Source: Nocardioidaceae bacterium
GTDB lineage: Bacteria; Actinomycetota; Actinomycetes; Propionibacteriales; Nocardioidaceae
Direction: 5' to 3'
DNA length: 51,072 nt
Assembly (NCBI GenBank): GCA_025980475.1
Contig: JAICXL010000009.1
Coordinates: 1-51,072, forward strand
The notes below the pieces were generated by a model. The model did no database searches. It was not told the origin of the DNA and saw nothing but the letters and a program-made list of their open reading frames with translations. Position numbers and translations under genes: made by a program. The number at the start of each line of letters is the position of its first letter. Position 1 is the first letter of the stretch. Below are positions 1-9,591 of the stretch, piece after piece.

Positions 1-24
1 CAGGTGCACGAAGGGGTCAGTCAC
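1..24 (-). CDS. Possible first codons of a DnaE-type (DnaE2-like) DNA polymerase III alpha subunit, cut by the window edge
   Basis: A GTG at 24-22 on the minus strand opens a frame reading V-T-D-P-F-V-H-L to the edge. A G-rich stretch (GGGCGGG) lies about 5 nt upstream, and the stop of the HEPN gene is 20 bp away. DnaE-type polymerases of actinobacteria often begin with a PHP domain reading roughly F-x-H-L-H, and HEPN (SAV_6107) plus DUF6504 genes are commonly seen near error-prone polymerases. Only eight codons are visible, so identity is inference from context, strengthened by the SOS box in front of the cassette. Confidence 0.35.
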
Positions 25-44
25 GAGAACCCGCCCTGCCGCCC

Positions 45-467
45 TCAGGCCACCCGGATCGGGACGTGGCCGGTCAGCCCGAGCGCGGTCTCGACCGTGG
101 CCAGGAACCGGTCGGCGTCACGGACCAGGTCGTCGGCCTCGCGCTCGGTGGCCGCCCGCCGGGAGCCGGCCTCGGCCGCGGCCCGCTTCTGGGCGCCGGC
201 GGCGAAGAAGGTCGCCCACTCGGCGAGCTCGGGGGCCACCTCGGCGAGCAGCACCCAGGCGTTCTTCTGCCGGCCGCGCCGTGGCCGGGCCGGCCGGGCG
301 CGGGCGGCCAGCAGCGCCGCGGCCGCCCGCAGCGCCGCCACGTGGGCGTGCGCATAGCGGGAGGGCACGTCGGTGCTGGTGATCGCCTCGCGCAGCGACT
401 CCGCGGCCAGCTCGAGGTAGGCGTGCGTGGCCGCCGGCAGGTAGAGGGGATGTGCTGTGTCGCGCAT
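45..467 (-). CDS. SAV_6107 family HEPN domain-containing protein
   Basis: A 140-residue mostly helical protein with the layout of the actinobacterial SAV_6107-type HEPN family: an N-terminal helix around YLELAAESLREA, an Arg/Ala-rich middle, then helices ending in a DADRFLATVE-like segment. R-Y-A-H-A-H (residues ~38-43) superficially fits the R-x4-H pattern of HEPN nucleases but is not at the usual C-terminal position, so nuclease activity is uncertain. The ATG at 467 was chosen because upstream frame runs through DUF6504. It follows DUF6504 by 11 bp and precedes the putative polymerase start by 20 bp, so it is probably the middle gene of an SOS-controlled operon. Molecular role unknown. Confidence 0.8.
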   Translation of the reverse strand: MRDTAHPLYLPAATHAYLELAAESLREAITSTDVPSRYAHAHVAALRAAAALLAARARPARPRRGRQKNAWVLLAEVAPELAEWATFFAAGAQKRAAAEAGSRRAATEREADDLVRDADRFLATVETALGLTGHVPIRVA

Positions 468-478
468 GGCCGGCCCCC

Positions 479-775
479 TCAGTCCGCGGCGTGGGCCAGC
501 TGCCAGCTGCCCGCCGCCCAGTCGAAGGCCAGGTCGAAGACACCGAAGCCGGGGTCGTCGTCCTCCGGCCGCAACATCGGGTGGGCCGCCGCGACCCGCC
601 AGACCTCGCGCTCGGCGACCGGATCGGCCGGAGCCGCGGATCTCCACCAGGCCCCGGTCTCCACCCAGTGCGCGACCACCTCGCGCACCTGCCACAACCT
701 GCCGTGCCAGAGGAACTGCTCAGGGCCCTCGCCGGCCCCCTTGCGCACCTCCACGGGATCGTCGTACCGCCGCAC
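479..775 (-). CDS. DUF6504 family protein
   Basis: A 98-residue protein with the DUF6504 pattern: an N-terminal VRRYDDPVEV, then EQFLWHGRLW, VAHWVETGAWW and a C-terminal GVFDLAFDWAAGSWQL. The family is small, function unknown, and often sits beside translesion/error-prone polymerase genes in actinobacteria. I chose the GTG at 775 because GGAAGGAG lies 7 nt upstream and the family usually begins at this RRYDDPV motif; ATGs at 850 or 910 would run through the regulatory region and the SOS box. First gene of the leftward cassette. Confidence 0.8.
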   Translation of the reverse strand: MRRYDDPVEVRKGAGEGPEQFLWHGRLWQVREVVAHWVETGAWWRSAAPADPVAEREVWRVAAAHPMLRPEDDDPGFGVFDLAFDWAAGSWQLAHAAD

Positions 776-869
776 TGCACTGCTCCTTCCTGGTGGGCAC
801 CCCGACCGACCCCTGTCGGCGCTCCGGCGGAGAATGGGGGTCGAGGTCATTCCCCGCCGGAGCCGGTGA

Positions 870-885
870 TCGAACATCCGTTCGA
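870..885. promoter_or_regulatory. LexA SOS box (perfect actinobacterial consensus)
   Basis: TCGAACATCCGTTCGA matches the mycobacterial/actinobacterial LexA operator TCGAAC-N4-GTTCGA in every conserved position, as a perfect inverted repeat. It lies 95 bp upstream of the DUF6504 start and 54 bp before the rightward YbaK -10 element. The leftward cassette has DNA-repair-type context, so LexA repression is most likely aimed there; a possible leftward -10, CATTCT, lies at 836-831. Confidence 0.9.
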
Positions 886-938
886 ACCATCTCAACGTAC
901 ACCGCCCCACCGACAGTGCTCAACCCCTCGCCGCTCGA

Positions 939-944
939 TAGCCT
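939..944 (+). promoter_or_regulatory. -10 element of a leaderless promoter for the YbaK-family gene
   Basis: TAGCCT followed by 7 nt and then the ATG at 952. No Shine-Dalgarno sequence is visible, consistent with transcription starting at the start codon. Confidence 0.6.
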
Positions 945-951
945 GCGGTCC

Positions 952-1446
952 ATGCCGGAGCACCCGTCGATCACCCGATTTCGCAGCGAGCTCGAACGCG
1001 TCGAGGGCCGACCGGTCACCGACGGCCGGATCGTGGTCCTGCCCGACTCGGTGCACACCGCCCAGCTGGCCGCCGACGCGCTGGGGTGCGAGGTCGGCGC
1101 GATCGCCAACAGCCTGCTCTTCGCGGCCGAGACCGGTGCCGGCGACGAGCCCGTGCTGATCCTGACCTCCGGCGCGCACCGGGTGGACACCGCGAAGGTG
1201 GCGGCCGACATCGGCGTCGCGAAGCTCAAGCGCGCCACGCCGGAGTTCGTCCGGGAGCACACCGGCCAGGTGATCGGCGGCGTCTCCCCGATCGCCCACC
1301 CGAAGCCGGTGCGCACCTTCCTCGACCCGTCGCTGAGGACGTACGACGTGGTCTGGGCGGCGGCCGGGCACCCGGCTGCGGTCTTCTCGTCGACCTACGA
1401 CGAGCTCAAGGCGATGACCGGCGCCACCGAGATCGAGGTGAGCTAG
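952..1446 (+). CDS. YbaK/EbsC family aminoacyl-tRNA deacylase-like protein
   Basis: A 164-residue protein of the YbaK/ProX editing fold, which hydrolyses mischarged aminoacyl-tRNAs in trans. Family hallmarks are the central segment with NSLLFAAE, the strand VLILTSGAHRVD, the conserved lysine region VAKLKRATPEFV, the loop GQVIGGVSPIAHP and the C-terminal PAAVFSSTYDEL. Length is typical. The ATG at 952 is supported by the -10 element 7 nt before it. Its TAG stop overlaps the GTG of the ArsC-family gene by 1 bp, so the two form a translationally coupled pair. tRNA substrate cannot be predicted. Confidence 0.88.
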   Translation: MPEHPSITRFRSELERVEGRPVTDGRIVVLPDSVHTAQLAADALGCEVGAIANSLLFAAETGAGDEPVLILTSGAHRVDTAKVAADIGVAKLKRATPEFVREHTGQVIGGVSPIAHPKPVRTFLDPSLRTYDVVWAAAGHPAAVFSSTYDELKAMTGATEIEVS

Positions 1447-1838
1447 TGGAGATCTGGGTCAACCCGGCCTGCTCGAAGTGCCGCACCGCCACGGCCGCGC
1501 TCGACGAGGCCGGGATCGCCTACACCGAGCGCCGCTACCTCGACGACCCGCCCAGCGCCCAGGAGCTCGCCGACGTCCTGGACCGGATGGGTCTGGAGCC
1601 GTGGGACCTGGCCCGGCCGAAGGAGACCCGGGAGGCCGGCATCGAGCTGCCCCGGGACCCAGCCCACCGGGACGCCTGGATCGCCGCGATGGTTCTGGAC
1701 CCGATCACGATCCAGCGGCCGATCATTACTGCCGATGACGGCACCACCGTCGTCGCGCGCGACCCCCACGCGCTGGACGAGGTGCTGGCCCAGGCCCACC
1801 CCCGTCGAGGGCCCGGACCGGCACCTCGCGACAACTGA
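1446..1838 (+). CDS. ArsC/Spx-family (thioredoxin-fold) arsenate reductase-like protein
   Basis: A 130-residue ArsC/Spx-family protein. It begins V-E-I-W-V-N-P-A-C-S-K-C-R, giving a C-x-x-C at residues 9-12 at the head of the first helix where ArsC has its catalytic cysteine; the later ARPKETREAGIELP and DPITIQRPII segments match the ArsC anion-binding and cis-Pro regions. The CSKCR form differs from the classic C-x-K-S-R, so a general redox role is as plausible as arsenate reduction; no arsenic-resistance gene is adjacent. The GTG at 1446 overlaps the previous stop. Confidence 0.8.
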   Translation: MEIWVNPACSKCRTATAALDEAGIAYTERRYLDDPPSAQELADVLDRMGLEPWDLARPKETREAGIELPRDPAHRDAWIAAMVLDPITIQRPIITADDGTTVVARDPHALDEVLAQAHPRRGPGPAPRDN

Positions 1839-1918
1839 GACTCTCCCGGGCCCCGATCGGTTGCCTCGTCCGCTGGCCTCCCCCGATTTCGTTATCAAGC
1901 CGTAGCCGAACCCACGGC

Positions 1919-6687: not shown

Positions 6688-8640
6688 GTGGAGCGCACGG
6701 TTGCCGATCCGATGATCGGGCGCATCCTCGACGGCCGCTACCGGATCGGCCCGCGGATCGCGCGCGGCGGCATGGCCGTGGTCTACGAGGCGACCGACCT
6801 GCGCCTGGACCGCACCGTGGCGGTGAAGGTGATGCACGCCGGCCTCGCCGACGACGACGCGTTCGTCGCGCGTTTCGAGCGGGAGGCCCGGGCCGCGGCC
6901 CGGCTGGCCCACCAGAACGTGGTCGCCGTCTTCGACCAGGGCGAGGACCACGGGCCCGACGGGACCACGCTGTTCCTGGTGATGGAGTACGTGCCCGGGC
7001 TGACCCTGCGCGACCTGGTCCGCGCGGAGGCGCCGGTGGCGCCCTCCCGCGCGCTGGCGCTGGTCGAGCCGGTGCTCTCCGCGCTCGCTGCGGCCCACGG
7101 CGCCGGGATGATCCATCGCGACATCAAGCCCGAGAACGTCCTGCTCACCGAGGCCGGCCAGGTCAAGGTGGCCGACTTCGGGCTGGCCCGGGCGATCAAC
7201 GCCGAGACCCAGCACACCGCGACCGGCGGGGTGCTGATCGGCACCGTTTCCTACCTCTCCCCCGAGCTCGTCGTGGACGGGCGTGCGGACGCCCGCGCCG
7301 ACGTCTATGCCGTCGGGGTGCTGCTCTACGAGATGCTCACGGGGCGCAAGCCGCACCAGGCCGACAGCCCGATCCAGGTCGCCTACAAGCACGTTCACGA
7401 GGACGTTCCGCCGCCGTCGGCGATCGTGCCCGGAATCCCGGCCTACGTCGATGCGCTCGTCGCCCGGGCCACGGCCCGGGACATGTCCATGCGTCCGGCG
7501 GACGCCCGGGTCCTGCTGCACCAGGTGCGTCGTGTCCGGCACGCGCTCGACCACGGGGTGGTCGAGGACGACGAGCTGACCGACGACCTCGCGCCCACCG
7601 TGCTCCTCGGCCGCACCGACGAGCTCACCGGCCCGCTGCCGCGGCAGATCGTCGACCCGGGTGACCTCGGCTTCCAGGAGCAGGAACGCACCGCCACGCT
7701 CGGCGGCCCGGCCCGCCCGCGACCCGCGCGGCGGCCGGTGCCTTCCCGCACGCCCCGGTCGCGCCGCGGCCCGGTGCTGCTGGCGCTGCTGCTGCTCGCC
7801 GCGCTCGTTGTGGGCCTGGGCGGCTGGTGGTTCGGGGCCGGCCGCTACACCAGCACGCCCGCCGTCATCGAGATGAGCCAGGCGGCCGCCCGGGCCCGGG
7901 TCGTGCACGCCGGGCTGGGCTTCACCGTCACGAAGCGGTCCTACGACGAGACCGTCGCGAGGGGCCGGGTCATCTCCACCGACCCGGAGCCCGGGTCCCG
8001 GATCCTCAAGGACGGGACCGTCTCCGTCGTGGTGTCGCTGGGTCCGGAGCGGCACGCCGTACCCTCCCTCGCCGGTCACACCCTCGACCAGGCGCAGGCC
8101 CTGCTGCAACGTGCCCACCTCTCCTACGGGGACCGGATCGGCCGCTGGTCGGCGCAGGTGCCGAAGGGCACCGTGATCCGGAGCACGCCGAAGGCGGGGC
8201 AGATGCTGCACCGCGACGCGGCCGTCGACGTGGTGGTCAGCCGGGGACCCCGGCCGATCCCGATCCCGGACGTGTCCGGCGAGCGCGCCTCCCGAGCCCA
8301 GCACCGGCTGACGAGGCTCGGCTTCGTCGTCGACCGCCTCCGCCAGCACGACGACAGGGTGCCGCGCGGCGTGGTGATCTCCCAGACGCCGGACGGCGGC
8401 ACCGGCATCAAGGGCGATCACGTGCAGCTGCTGGTCTCTCAGGGCCCGGTCATGGTGACGGTGCCCAAGGTGACCGGGATGGGCCTCGAGGCCGCACGGC
8501 AGACCCTGGCCGACGCCGGGCTGCGGGTGCGCGTCGAGAAGGCGGAGTTCTACGTCTCGCTGCAGTACGTCGTCAAGCAGGACCCGTCCGACGGGGGCCG
8601 GCTCGCCCGCGGCAGCGTGGTCACCCTCACGATCGTCTGA
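6688..8640 (+). CDS. pknL: PASTA-domain serine/threonine protein kinase (PknL-like)
   Basis: A 650-residue transmembrane kinase. The cytoplasmic kinase domain spans ~18-280: glycine loop RGGMAVVYEA, catalytic Lys in AVKVM (K47), HRDIKPEN (143-150), DFG (163-165), and a TATGGVLIGTVSYLSPE activation loop with phosphorylatable Thr. A juxtamembrane Pro/Arg-rich stretch leads to a membrane helix at ~361-383 and about four extracellular PASTA repeats, expected to sense peptidoglycan or lipid II. The GTG at 6688 has GGAGG 5 nt upstream. Divergence from the Rv2175c-like gene and position near the DAHP synthase support PknL orthology rather than PknB, which is usually near pbpA/rodA. Confidence 0.92.
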   Translation: MERTVADPMIGRILDGRYRIGPRIARGGMAVVYEATDLRLDRTVAVKVMHAGLADDDAFVARFEREARAAARLAHQNVVAVFDQGEDHGPDGTTLFLVMEYVPGLTLRDLVRAEAPVAPSRALALVEPVLSALAAAHGAGMIHRDIKPENVLLTEAGQVKVADFGLARAINAETQHTATGGVLIGTVSYLSPELVVDGRADARADVYAVGVLLYEMLTGRKPHQADSPIQVAYKHVHEDVPPPSAIVPGIPAYVDALVARATARDMSMRPADARVLLHQVRRVRHALDHGVVEDDELTDDLAPTVLLGRTDELTGPLPRQIVDPGDLGFQEQERTATLGGPARPRPARRPVPSRTPRSRRGPVLLALLLLAALVVGLGGWWFGAGRYTSTPAVIEMSQAAARARVVHAGLGFTVTKRSYDETVARGRVISTDPEPGSRILKDGTVSVVVSLGPERHAVPSLAGHTLDQAQALLQRAHLSYGDRIGRWSAQVPKGTVIRSTPKAGQMLHRDAAVDVVVSRGPRPIPIPDVSGERASRAQHRLTRLGFVVDRLRQHDDRVPRGVVISQTPDGGTGIKGDHVQLLVSQGPVMVTVPKVTGMGLEAARQTLADAGLRVRVEKAEFYVSLQYVVKQDPSDGGRLARGSVVTLTIV

Positions 8641-8663
8641 GGCCGCCGGGGTTGACGCAGCCC

Positions 8664-8706
8664 GTCACGTTTGTCACATTCATAGACACCAGTCACACCT
8701 TTCACA
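8664..8706 (+). promoter_or_regulatory. Candidate MtrA-type direct-repeat operator
   Basis: Four copies of a GTCACA-like hexamer on the plus strand: GTCACG (8664-8669), GTCACA (8673-8678), GTCACA (8692-8697), TTCACA (8701-8706). Start-to-start spacing is 9, 19 and 9 bp. The response regulator MtrA of mycobacteria recognises GTCACA-type 9-mer direct repeats and controls cell-wall hydrolases, which fits the transglycosylase downstream. A weak TTGACG-17-CACATT promoter overlaps (8652-8680). Assignment is inference. Confidence 0.5.
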
Positions 8707-8736
8707 GGGTTGGCACCGTCGATGAAGGGGACACTC

Positions 8737-9591
8737 GTGGGCCTCGTCCGCCGCCTCACCGGCACCGTGCTCAGTACGGGCCTCTGCCTCGGAGTCGTCT
8801 CGACCGCCCTGGTCACGACCGCGGGAGAGGCGGCCGCCGTCGCCCCTCCGGGGCTCGCCACGGCCGGGCGCCCCTGGCCCGGACACCCGGGTCGCACCAT
8901 CGTGATGCACACGGTGCGCCGCGGCGACACCGCGACCGGCCTGGCGGTGCGCTTCCACGCCTGGACCGACGAGCTGTTGGCCATCAACCACCTGCACCGC
9001 CGCTCGGTGCTCTTCGCCGGCGAGCGCGTGAAGATCCCGGTCGTGGTCGCCGCCGCTCGCAAGGCGCGCCACCGTGCGACCAACCACCAGGCCCACCCGA
9101 AGGTCCATCACGCGACGCATCAGGCGACCCACCACCGGACCCACCACCGGACCCTGCACGACCGGGGCTGGCGGCACTACCGGATGACGCGGGCGGAGGT
9201 CGCCCGCCGGATCGCCCTGGAGGCCCGCCGCCAGGGCGTCTCCCCGACGCTGGCGCAGGCGATCGGGTGGCAGGAGTCCGGCTGGTACCAGCCCGTCGTC
9301 TCCAGCGCCGGGGCCGTCGGCGTCATGCAGTTGTTGCCCAGCACCGGTCGCTGGATGGCGGGGTACGTCGGCCGGCCGCTGCACCTGCGCGACACCTGGG
9401 ACAACGTCAAGGCCGGCGTGGTCCTGATCCACGTGCTGCAGCGCAACACGCGGACCACGCGCCGGGCGATCGGCGCCTACTACCAGGGCCTCGGCGGCGT
9501 GCAACAGCACGGCCTCTATCCCGAGACCAGGCGCTATGTCCGCAACGTCCGCGCCATCCAGCAACGGCTGGCCTCGGGGCGGACGCCCTGA
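8737..9591 (+). CDS. Secreted LysM-containing lytic transglycosylase
   Basis: A 284-residue exported cell-wall hydrolase. The first ~35 residues form a signal peptide (VRRLTGTVLSTGLCLGVVSTALVTTAGEAAA). A LysM-like domain follows (MHTVRRGDTATGLAVRFHAWTDELLAINHL), then a His-rich linker (~105-145), then a soluble-lytic-transglycosylase domain with AIGWQESGW (catalytic Glu), SAGAVGVMQLLPSTG and IGAYYQGLGGV. I chose the GTG at 8737: GAAGGGGA lies 5 nt upstream, the same arrangement as the secreted protein at 19315; ATG at 8722 and TTG at 8710 are alternatives. The preceding region holds candidate MtrA repeats. Confidence 0.87.
   Translation: MGLVRRLTGTVLSTGLCLGVVSTALVTTAGEAAAVAPPGLATAGRPWPGHPGRTIVMHTVRRGDTATGLAVRFHAWTDELLAINHLHRRSVLFAGERVKIPVVVAAARKARHRATNHQAHPKVHHATHQATHHRTHHRTLHDRGWRHYRMTRAEVARRIALEARRQGVSPTLAQAIGWQESGWYQPVVSSAGAVGVMQLLPSTGRWMAGYVGRPLHLRDTWDNVKAGVVLIHVLQRNTRTTRRAIGAYYQGLGGVQQHGLYPETRRYVRNVRAIQQRLASGRTP
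9097..9174 (+). repeat. Segment encoding a His-rich linker
   Basis: Imperfect short repeats such as CACCACCGGACC encode a string of H-x-T/H-H-x-T units between LysM and transglycosylase domains. High His density could bind divalent metal; this is only a suggestion. Confidence 0.6.

Follow-up and report, generated by a model that had tools for sequence, protein, structure and literature searches.

The DNA analysed here, a stretch of 51,072 nucleotides from a bacterium of the family Nocardioidaceae that we call the window, is an entire contig (C62) of a 2.76 Mb assembly (114 contigs, 92.8% complete), and near its left end an SOS box stands before two small genes and the first codons of a third. 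The question that this locus raises is whether the box serves a mutagenic polymerase to which the two small proteins are accessories, as a preliminary description of the locus had supposed, or whether one of the small proteins is itself the gene with which the box is associated.

The SOS box, the putative operon and its promoter

The box, TCGAACATCCGTTCGA, occupies positions 870..885, has perfect palindromic half sites (no strand is assigned), and shows 0 mismatches to TCGAAC-N4-GTTCGA, so that the preliminary description was right to call it a perfect actinobacterial SOS box. It is the only perfect site in the window, which contains seven sites with at most two mismatches compared with 1.67 ± 1.36 in 100 shuffles, and one of two in the assembly, the other lying at G000:C5:37896-37911 (L237:7897). 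Elsewhere in the same genome a one-mismatch box (G000:C68:8994; L240:6995) is found 48 bases before a gene that by eye resembles uvrA, which supports the same LexA consensus. Our search for lexA in this 92.8%-complete assembly did not find the gene; the LexA DNA-binding family was matched in 28 of the 30 genomes of the search of relatives, in 27 of them over the cut-off.

To the left of the box, and on the minus strand, lie a gene for a DUF6504 protein of 98 aa (479..775; PF20114, E 1.6e-18) and a gene for a HEPN_SAV_6107 protein of 140 aa (45..467; PF18726, E 7.8e-35), which bears out the two domain assignments made earlier. The third gene enters the window with its first 8 codons only (1..24, minus strand, GTG start at 24), and had been named as a possible dnaE2; since contig C71 of the same genome ends in 116 bases that match positions 1-116 of the window, with one mismatch, and carries the rest of dnaE2, that identification stands. 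The gene order on C71 is dnaE2, SAM methyltransferase, dinB and DUF3040, and the DnaE2 encoded there is 71.6% identical, over 1253 alignment columns, to the protein of a related locus (L059). The gaps in the window are 11 bp between DUF6504 and HEPN and 20 bp between HEPN and the dnaE2 GTG. Across loci, with start codons picked by our own ribosome-site rule, the DUF6504-HEPN gap has a median of 12 bp and does not exceed 50 bp in 48 of 58; where dnaE2 is downstream (34 loci), the HEPN-dnaE2 gap stays within 50 bp in 25. The span 479-885 covered by the preliminary description thus excludes the HEPN gene, the dnaE2 start and the promoter element described below. A methyltransferase gene is also found near HEPN in nearly all of the loci L047-L077 and L236; for that of L059 the best model is CmoM, at a score below the cut-off.

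A divergent gene with a YbaK-type editing domain (952..1446, plus strand; PF04073, E 2.1e-26) flanks the box and could share it. That the box serves ybaK only was considered and rejected, because there are loci (L051-L054, L174 and L184) in which the box is near DUF6504 or HEPN while ybaK is more than 1 kb away.

The region on the other side of the box contains a predicted promoter on the minus strand. Its -10 element, TACGTT (TAnnnT; 894..899), is situated 8 nt upstream of the box, a spacing that is kept in relatives, and 10 nt before it is the -35-like sequence TGTCGG (910..915), which fits the consensus tTGTCRgtg-8 nt-TannnT given for RecA-independent damage promoters (PMC5656591). Together the two elements match TGTCRG-N10-TAnnnT at 6/6 bases, at -30 from the box. 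Of 90 boxed loci, 51 have an element with at least 5/6 bases and the other 39 lack it; with genera represented once the figure is 24 of 58, and random 60-bp windows from the same loci give 0.1%. With one exception, the 51 elements start 30 to 33 nt upstream of the box. The same TGTCRG-N10-TAnnnT is found in the RecA-independent P1/PafBC promoters, among them that of mycobacterial recA (PMC5656591). At the present locus it is the start predicted for this very promoter, and not a second promoter, that the LexA box overlaps. Because of this overlap, RecA-dependent derepression and RecA-independent activation should both be able to act at the locus, provided that LexA and PafBC bind where these elements suggest.

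Conservation of the box with the HEPN gene and with the polymerases

The DUF6504 protein of the window was matched in 34 of 58 genomes (its own included) and the HEPN protein in 46 of 58. In each of the 31 other fetched loci in which DUF6504 was found, this gene has a perfect box upstream, and a perfect box is likewise near HEPN in all 18 further HEPN loci, 16 of which have no DUF6504 match; the conservation of the box in relatives, which the preliminary description had left to be checked, is therefore confirmed. Across the class, HEPN was found in 197 of 296 genomes and 87 of 114 genera. We took one locus for each of 60 genera with a HEPN place among the matches listed, a set that favours better-scoring members, and found a perfect box at most 1.6 kb upstream of HEPN in 49 loci, a one-mismatch box at most 1 kb upstream in 9, and neither kind in 2. 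The remainder of the 733 kb of these 60 loci contains 5 one-mismatch boxes and a single perfect box, which directly precedes the dnaE2 gene of L139. There (L139:13064-13301) dnaE2 is apart from HEPN and has its own perfect box, with a leader hairpin 7 nt later and then the dnaE2 start.

The two loci of this set with no box within one mismatch are L145 and L138, the latter from genus g40, which we take to be Streptomyces. The best sites upstream of HEPN in g40 loci have two or more mismatches, and in L138, L101, L110, L114, L118 and L120-L122 a two-mismatch site is located at approximately -216 to -227 relative to HEPN and resembles a box that has degenerated at its original position. Family f20 (L136, L154, L171, L178, L183 and L185) has no single perfect box; two one-mismatch boxes, 38 to 40 bases apart, precede HEPN. 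For 50 loci of the Mycobacteriaceae-like family f7, the best site at most 1.2 kb upstream of HEPN has 0, 1, 2, 3 or 4 mismatches in 20, 16, 10, 1 and 3 loci, respectively. One f7 genus, g25, is missing HEPN in 6 of 6 sampled genomes, with HEPN present in 114 of the 115 other f7 genomes, and Corynebacterium (genus g133) has it in 179 of 181.

Counts of this kind bear on the reading that the box is there mainly for dnaE2 and dinB, with HEPN and DUF6504 as passengers. DUF6504, dnaE2 and dinB do accompany the boxed HEPN gene in 25 of the 60 genera, and the LexA targets of S. venezuelae include dnaE2 and dinP (PMC9380542, whose main text does not contain the word HEPN). The comparative data nevertheless largely contradict this reading, and we consider it improbable. 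In particular, 19 of the 60 one-per-genus loci have no Y-family or DnaE profile match, and 17 of the 19 have a box within one mismatch (L139, one of the 17, has dnaE2 farther away behind the separate box noted above); in L149, L156 and L160, where dnaE2 is upstream of HEPN, the box is between the two and directly before HEPN; and in f7 HEPN is present in 114 of 121 genomes even though no polymerase is seen in 18 of the 20 loci for which 6 to 11 kb was examined.

The same picture is seen at closer range. Some species of the window's genus have the order DUF6504-HEPN-dnaE2-methyltransferase-dinB and others have it minus dnaE2, and the box is perfect in both. It is retained in loci without dnaE2 (L065-L067 and L069-L076) and in loci whose fetched stretch gave no profile match to a Y-family or DnaE protein (L051-L054, L056, L057 and L085-L092 among them), and it is perfect in genus g16, with genomes of 8 Mb, for which neither tblastn nor profiles found dnaE2 or dinB in the fetched 18 to 19 kb. 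Among 130 fetched loci checked by profile, several of them short stretches, 57 are without Y-family and DnaE matches. Conversely, L046, L048, L049 and L068 have DUF6504 and dnaE2 without HEPN and keep the box; the absence of HEPN from these loci and from g25 indicates that HEPN is not required for the DnaE2B system introduced below. The proposal of a mutasome cassette thus stands insofar as the box leads into dnaE2, but the box also stays where the polymerase is absent and is not bound to it. Judged from these gene orders, HEPN is the constant SOS-linked gene of the sampled loci, steadier than the adjacent polymerases, and the box would mark it as a core SOS gene that is often, but not always, inside an ImuB-C/DnaE2B/DinB operon.

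A search for DnaE in 20 Mycobacteriaceae-like genomes gave matches at two or more places in 19, so that HEPN could still act with DnaE2 in trans; the genome with a single DnaE place, G353, has HEPN and no box. Co-occurrence of HEPN and DUF6504 in the 296 genomes of the class (both in 76, HEPN only in 121, DUF6504 only in 45, neither in 54) was left out of the argument because the Pfam DUF6504 family includes copies far from HEPN. The Pfam DUF6504 model also matches Caulobacter vibrioides, a genome of the control list.

The proteins of the operon and candidate roles for HEPN

Systems in which DnaE2B is found with an active PolY and a standalone ImuB-C have been described in Actinobacteria, with Tessaracoccus lapidicaptus as an example (PMC12926913). 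The L059 DnaE2 is just 28 to 32% identical to the DnaE2 of 20 other loci, which are of the imuB-linked kind, and the catalytic motifs of DinB are kept in the DinB of the window's own genome as well as in relatives (DMDAF in 63 of 64, SxDE[AVC] in 60 of 64, with the four misses reading ALDEA); given this distance and these motifs, the cassette fits that description. It has in common with the DnaE2B systems of PMC12926913 a distant DnaE2, an operon-encoded active DinB, a small partner rich in beta structure and an SOS box, and, unlike them, it adds HEPN, a methyltransferase and DUF3040. With the ImuA-ImuB-DnaE2 mutasome it shares an SOS-controlled error-prone DnaE2 and an accessory beta domain; unlike in that mutasome, the ImuB-C-like part forms a protein of its own, and PolY has intact catalytic motifs. 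No imuA or imuB was seen in the cassette, and the gene order of the window's operon offers no place for either. A search for DnaE homologues in the window's own genome found DnaE2B and one other place. The words HEPN and DUF6504 are absent from the main texts of PMC12926913 and PMC6511836, as is the word HEPN from that of PMC3765255.

The fit to these systems depends in part on DUF6504, which the preliminary description had presented as having no known role. That statement needs qualifying, as DUF6504 bears a weak resemblance to ImuB-C, the beta-rich domain that ends ImuB and of which standalone copies have been described next to DinB, DnaE2 and further repair genes (PMC3765255, PMC6511836). 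The structural model of DUF6504 is all-beta with six strands (pLDDT 87.2). Of 20 further dnaE2 loci from relatives, 14 encode an ImuB-like protein, and all seven of these proteins that we tested carry the Y-family domain. Aligned with hhalign to the last 150 residues of 13 ImuB-like proteins, the DUF6504 profile scored 23.0 locally and 16.6 globally, compared with maxima of 21.6 (n=200) and 11.9 (n=100), respectively, for column-shuffled controls; the set includes L256 and L258 on account of their earlier match to the DUF6504 profile, and L259, which has a frame problem, was in the first ImuB-C profile comparison and was left out of the shuffle-controlled one. The hhalign probability is 4 to 11%, the comparison with one single ImuB is not significant (P 0.25), and the Pfam DUF6504 model matched none of the seven ImuB proteins. 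In the reverse direction, an ImuB-C model searched against a set of 62 matched the DUF6504 protein of L158 at E 1.9e-6 and most others weakly, and a pattern common to the two families can be traced by eye (P-x2-F, W-x5-WW and a final W-x6-D). Foldseek comparison of the DUF6504 model with the PDB gave nothing below E 0.001 and linked it to no known fold, a profile search of the PDB gave no convincing match, and a plasmid collection held no match to the L059 DUF6504 protein at E 0.01. Taken together, the alignments suggest that DUF6504 is probably a diverged standalone ImuB-C.

The HEPN protein is of the same sequence family and fold as the SAV_6107 family of the HEPN superfamily (PMC3710099, the main text of which does not link that family to LexA, DnaE or ImuB). 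Its AlphaFold model (pLDDT 91.8) has as its top matches in the PDB the HEPN domains 2hsb, 1ufb and 1wol, with probability 1.00 and TM 0.54 to 0.77; the best E value is 0.033, none being below 0.001, and a profile search of the PDB returned just 2hsb, sub-threshold, at E 0.098. The plasmid collection held no HEPN match at E 1e-5. We know of no interaction or phenotype for HEPN_SAV_6107. A search of openly accessible literature, with subscription papers mostly outside it, yielded no report that links DUF6504 or SAV_6107 HEPN to SOS.

The fold invites the reading that HEPN is a damage-induced RNase, causing RNA decay and dormancy in the manner of HEPN toxins. Most HEPN domains have an RNase active site (PMC3710099), and an R-x4-H-like motif, RYxxAH relaxed to [RK][YF]xxA[HY], is present in 87 of 88 family members outside Corynebacterium. 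The same survey, however, lists the SAV_6107 family without a conserved active-site motif (PMC3710099). Furthermore, the only common R-x4-H of the family sits in the second helix of the HEPN model, the aligned Corynebacterium members read ExAYQA at that position though the synteny-matched gene is LexA-regulated in C. glutamicum, and no antitoxin-like partner was seen in the operon. The second helix is, we presume, not the usual place of the HEPN R-x4-6-H catalytic motif. A motif that is listed as not conserved in the family and is lost in Corynebacterium makes a catalytic RNase unlikely, and we regard this reading as very improbable.

By gene order the C. glutamicum gene in question is cg2381, which is among the LexA-regulon genes and is induced by ciprofloxacin with an M of 3.86, equal to the value for recA (PMC5055667); the regulon, of 48 genes, was defined by comparative transcriptomics and band shifts (Jochmann 2009, cited in PMC5055667). 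It is described there only as a conserved hypothetical protein. C. gallinarum has the order metF, an acetyltransferase-like gene on the opposite strand, HEPN, DUF3040 and mraZ (metF and the acetyltransferase being named by reading the sequences), and HEPN-DUF3040-mraZ is found in three more Corynebacterium loci. Counting genes from mraZ, which is cg2378 (PMC5055667), the HEPN gene should be cg2381. This assignment is by synteny: C. glutamicum has a PF18726 match, found as a control, and was not among the 22 named Corynebacterium relatives found with the alignment query. No DUF6504 or polymerase was seen beside HEPN in the Corynebacterium loci.

This neighbourhood is the basis of what we consider the main rival, namely that HEPN acts in the SOS response as a checkpoint, slowing growth, division or the synthesis of the cell wall after damage, and that its proximity to polymerases is secondary. 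The locus is just upstream of DUF3040 and, where examined, of mraZ, the start of the division cluster, an arrangement found in all four Corynebacterium loci; ciprofloxacin raises cg2381 and lowers mraZ in C. glutamicum (PMC5055667); and, of 50 Mycobacteriaceae-like loci, 45 have the order box-HEPN-DUF3040 and no match to dnaE2 or dinB, counting boxes with at most two mismatches and DUF3040 loosely, in a set in which 30 stretches reach just 1.5 kb each side and dinB appears only in L226 and L233. The neighbourhood may, on the other hand, be merely ancient synteny, and many genera have HEPN placed between DUF6504 and dnaE2, separated from them by short gaps. We rate a checkpoint as unlikely, if well worth keeping in view, and an adaptor of translesion synthesis as the most likely role of HEPN.

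The leader hairpin and a model for the locus

Between the box and DUF6504 lies an inverted repeat (823..861, minus strand) predicted to form, in the leader RNA, a hairpin with a 14 bp stem and the loop ACCUCGACCCC. From 38 leaders that contain the loop motif we aligned 25, the 13 omitted having another loop register or poor pairing. All 14 of the 14 pairs change on both sides in these 25 leaders, and 93.7% of positions are paired, the latter being a selected figure; the constancy of the loop in this alignment is imposed by the motif search. The covariation score is 0.765, compared with 0.244 ± 0.026 for shuffled alignments, 0 of 500 of which scored as high, and sliding the partners abolishes the signal. 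In the unselected set of 38 leaders, 11.3 of 14 positions pair, compared with 8.0 for shuffled partners (maximum 9.1).

A covariance model, R1, matches the hairpin of the window at 55.3 bits (E 3.4e-8), the window being among the 25 sequences from which the model was built. Searched against 92 sources (1.35 Mb), R1 gave 44 matches, 3 of them the opposite strand of another, and thus 41 distinct sites, of which 40 are within 250 nt after a box; 16 of the 41 are independent of the building set, and 15 of these follow a box. From 75 further loci came 8 matches, 7 of them after a box (L080, L081, L082, L089, L093, L094 and L095). All 22 independent box-linked matches have the loop TCGACCC. The matches that do not follow a box are in L185 and L248; that of L248 (L248:8958-8993, 30.7 bits) belongs to the other type of dnaE2 locus, has no box of at most three mismatches around it in 8601-9215, and is perhaps due to chance.

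The hairpin follows the box in 38 of the 62 DUF6504 loci of the 92-source set and in 2 of the 30 without DUF6504. It precedes dnaE2, not DUF6504, in L139, and its presence before HEPN in L080-L082, where there is no DUF6504 match, indicates that it is not strictly tied to DUF6504. A search of Rfam gave no family for it (window positions 1-1900, in which the only match was a sub-threshold miRNA elsewhere), and six loci gave no Rfam match at E 0.1. A pseudoknot between the loop and downstream sequence was considered and set aside: it is good in the window and some close relatives and fails generally, the mean longest complement being 5.3, compared with 4.4 for shuffled sequences, over 38 leaders.

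The repeat could instead be a DNA-level operator or a plain terminator and not a recognised RNA. Its richness in GC and its position, 4 to 116 nt after the box, would suit either. Yet the two arms differ among leaders in a compensatory manner and the loop stays the same, the reverse of what a palindromic DNA operator would show, and no T-run follows the repeat in the window. We think an operator or terminator rather unlikely; the hairpin is apparently a new leader RNA element.

These observations can be brought together in a model, which as a whole we favour on balance and with modest confidence. The locus would be a damage-inducible operon comprising the hairpin, DUF6504 (probable ImuB-C), HEPN, a DnaE2B-like DnaE2, the SAM methyltransferase, DinB and DUF3040, repressed by LexA at a box overlapping the point from which transcription by a PafBC-type promoter is predicted to begin. 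DUF6504/ImuB-C, DnaE2B and DinB would form a translesion mutasome. HEPN would be a core SOS protein, a non-catalytic helical adaptor that is induced together with recA and retained by most of the actinomycete genera sampled, and would most likely help control translesion polymerases, acting from the same operon where DnaE2B is present and in trans elsewhere.

A more far-reaching version, which we put forward only tentatively and think doubtful as it stands, is that HEPN is an unrecognised core SOS effector and that the mutasome operon is gated twice, by LexA on the PafBC-type promoter and, after initiation, by a new family of leader hairpin with a near-invariant UCGACCC loop. A protein made upon damage, possibly HEPN or DUF6504, could bind the loop and so time mutagenic synthesis.

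For the actinomycetes, the analysis gives a protein found in 87 of 114 sampled genera a concrete pathway and, by synteny, a model gene, cg2381. The covarying hairpin adds a possible RNA layer to the control of error-prone replication, and the operon is a natural setting for work on the function of standalone ImuB-C proteins. An aspect of the bacterial response to damage that has received little study is thereby made testable.
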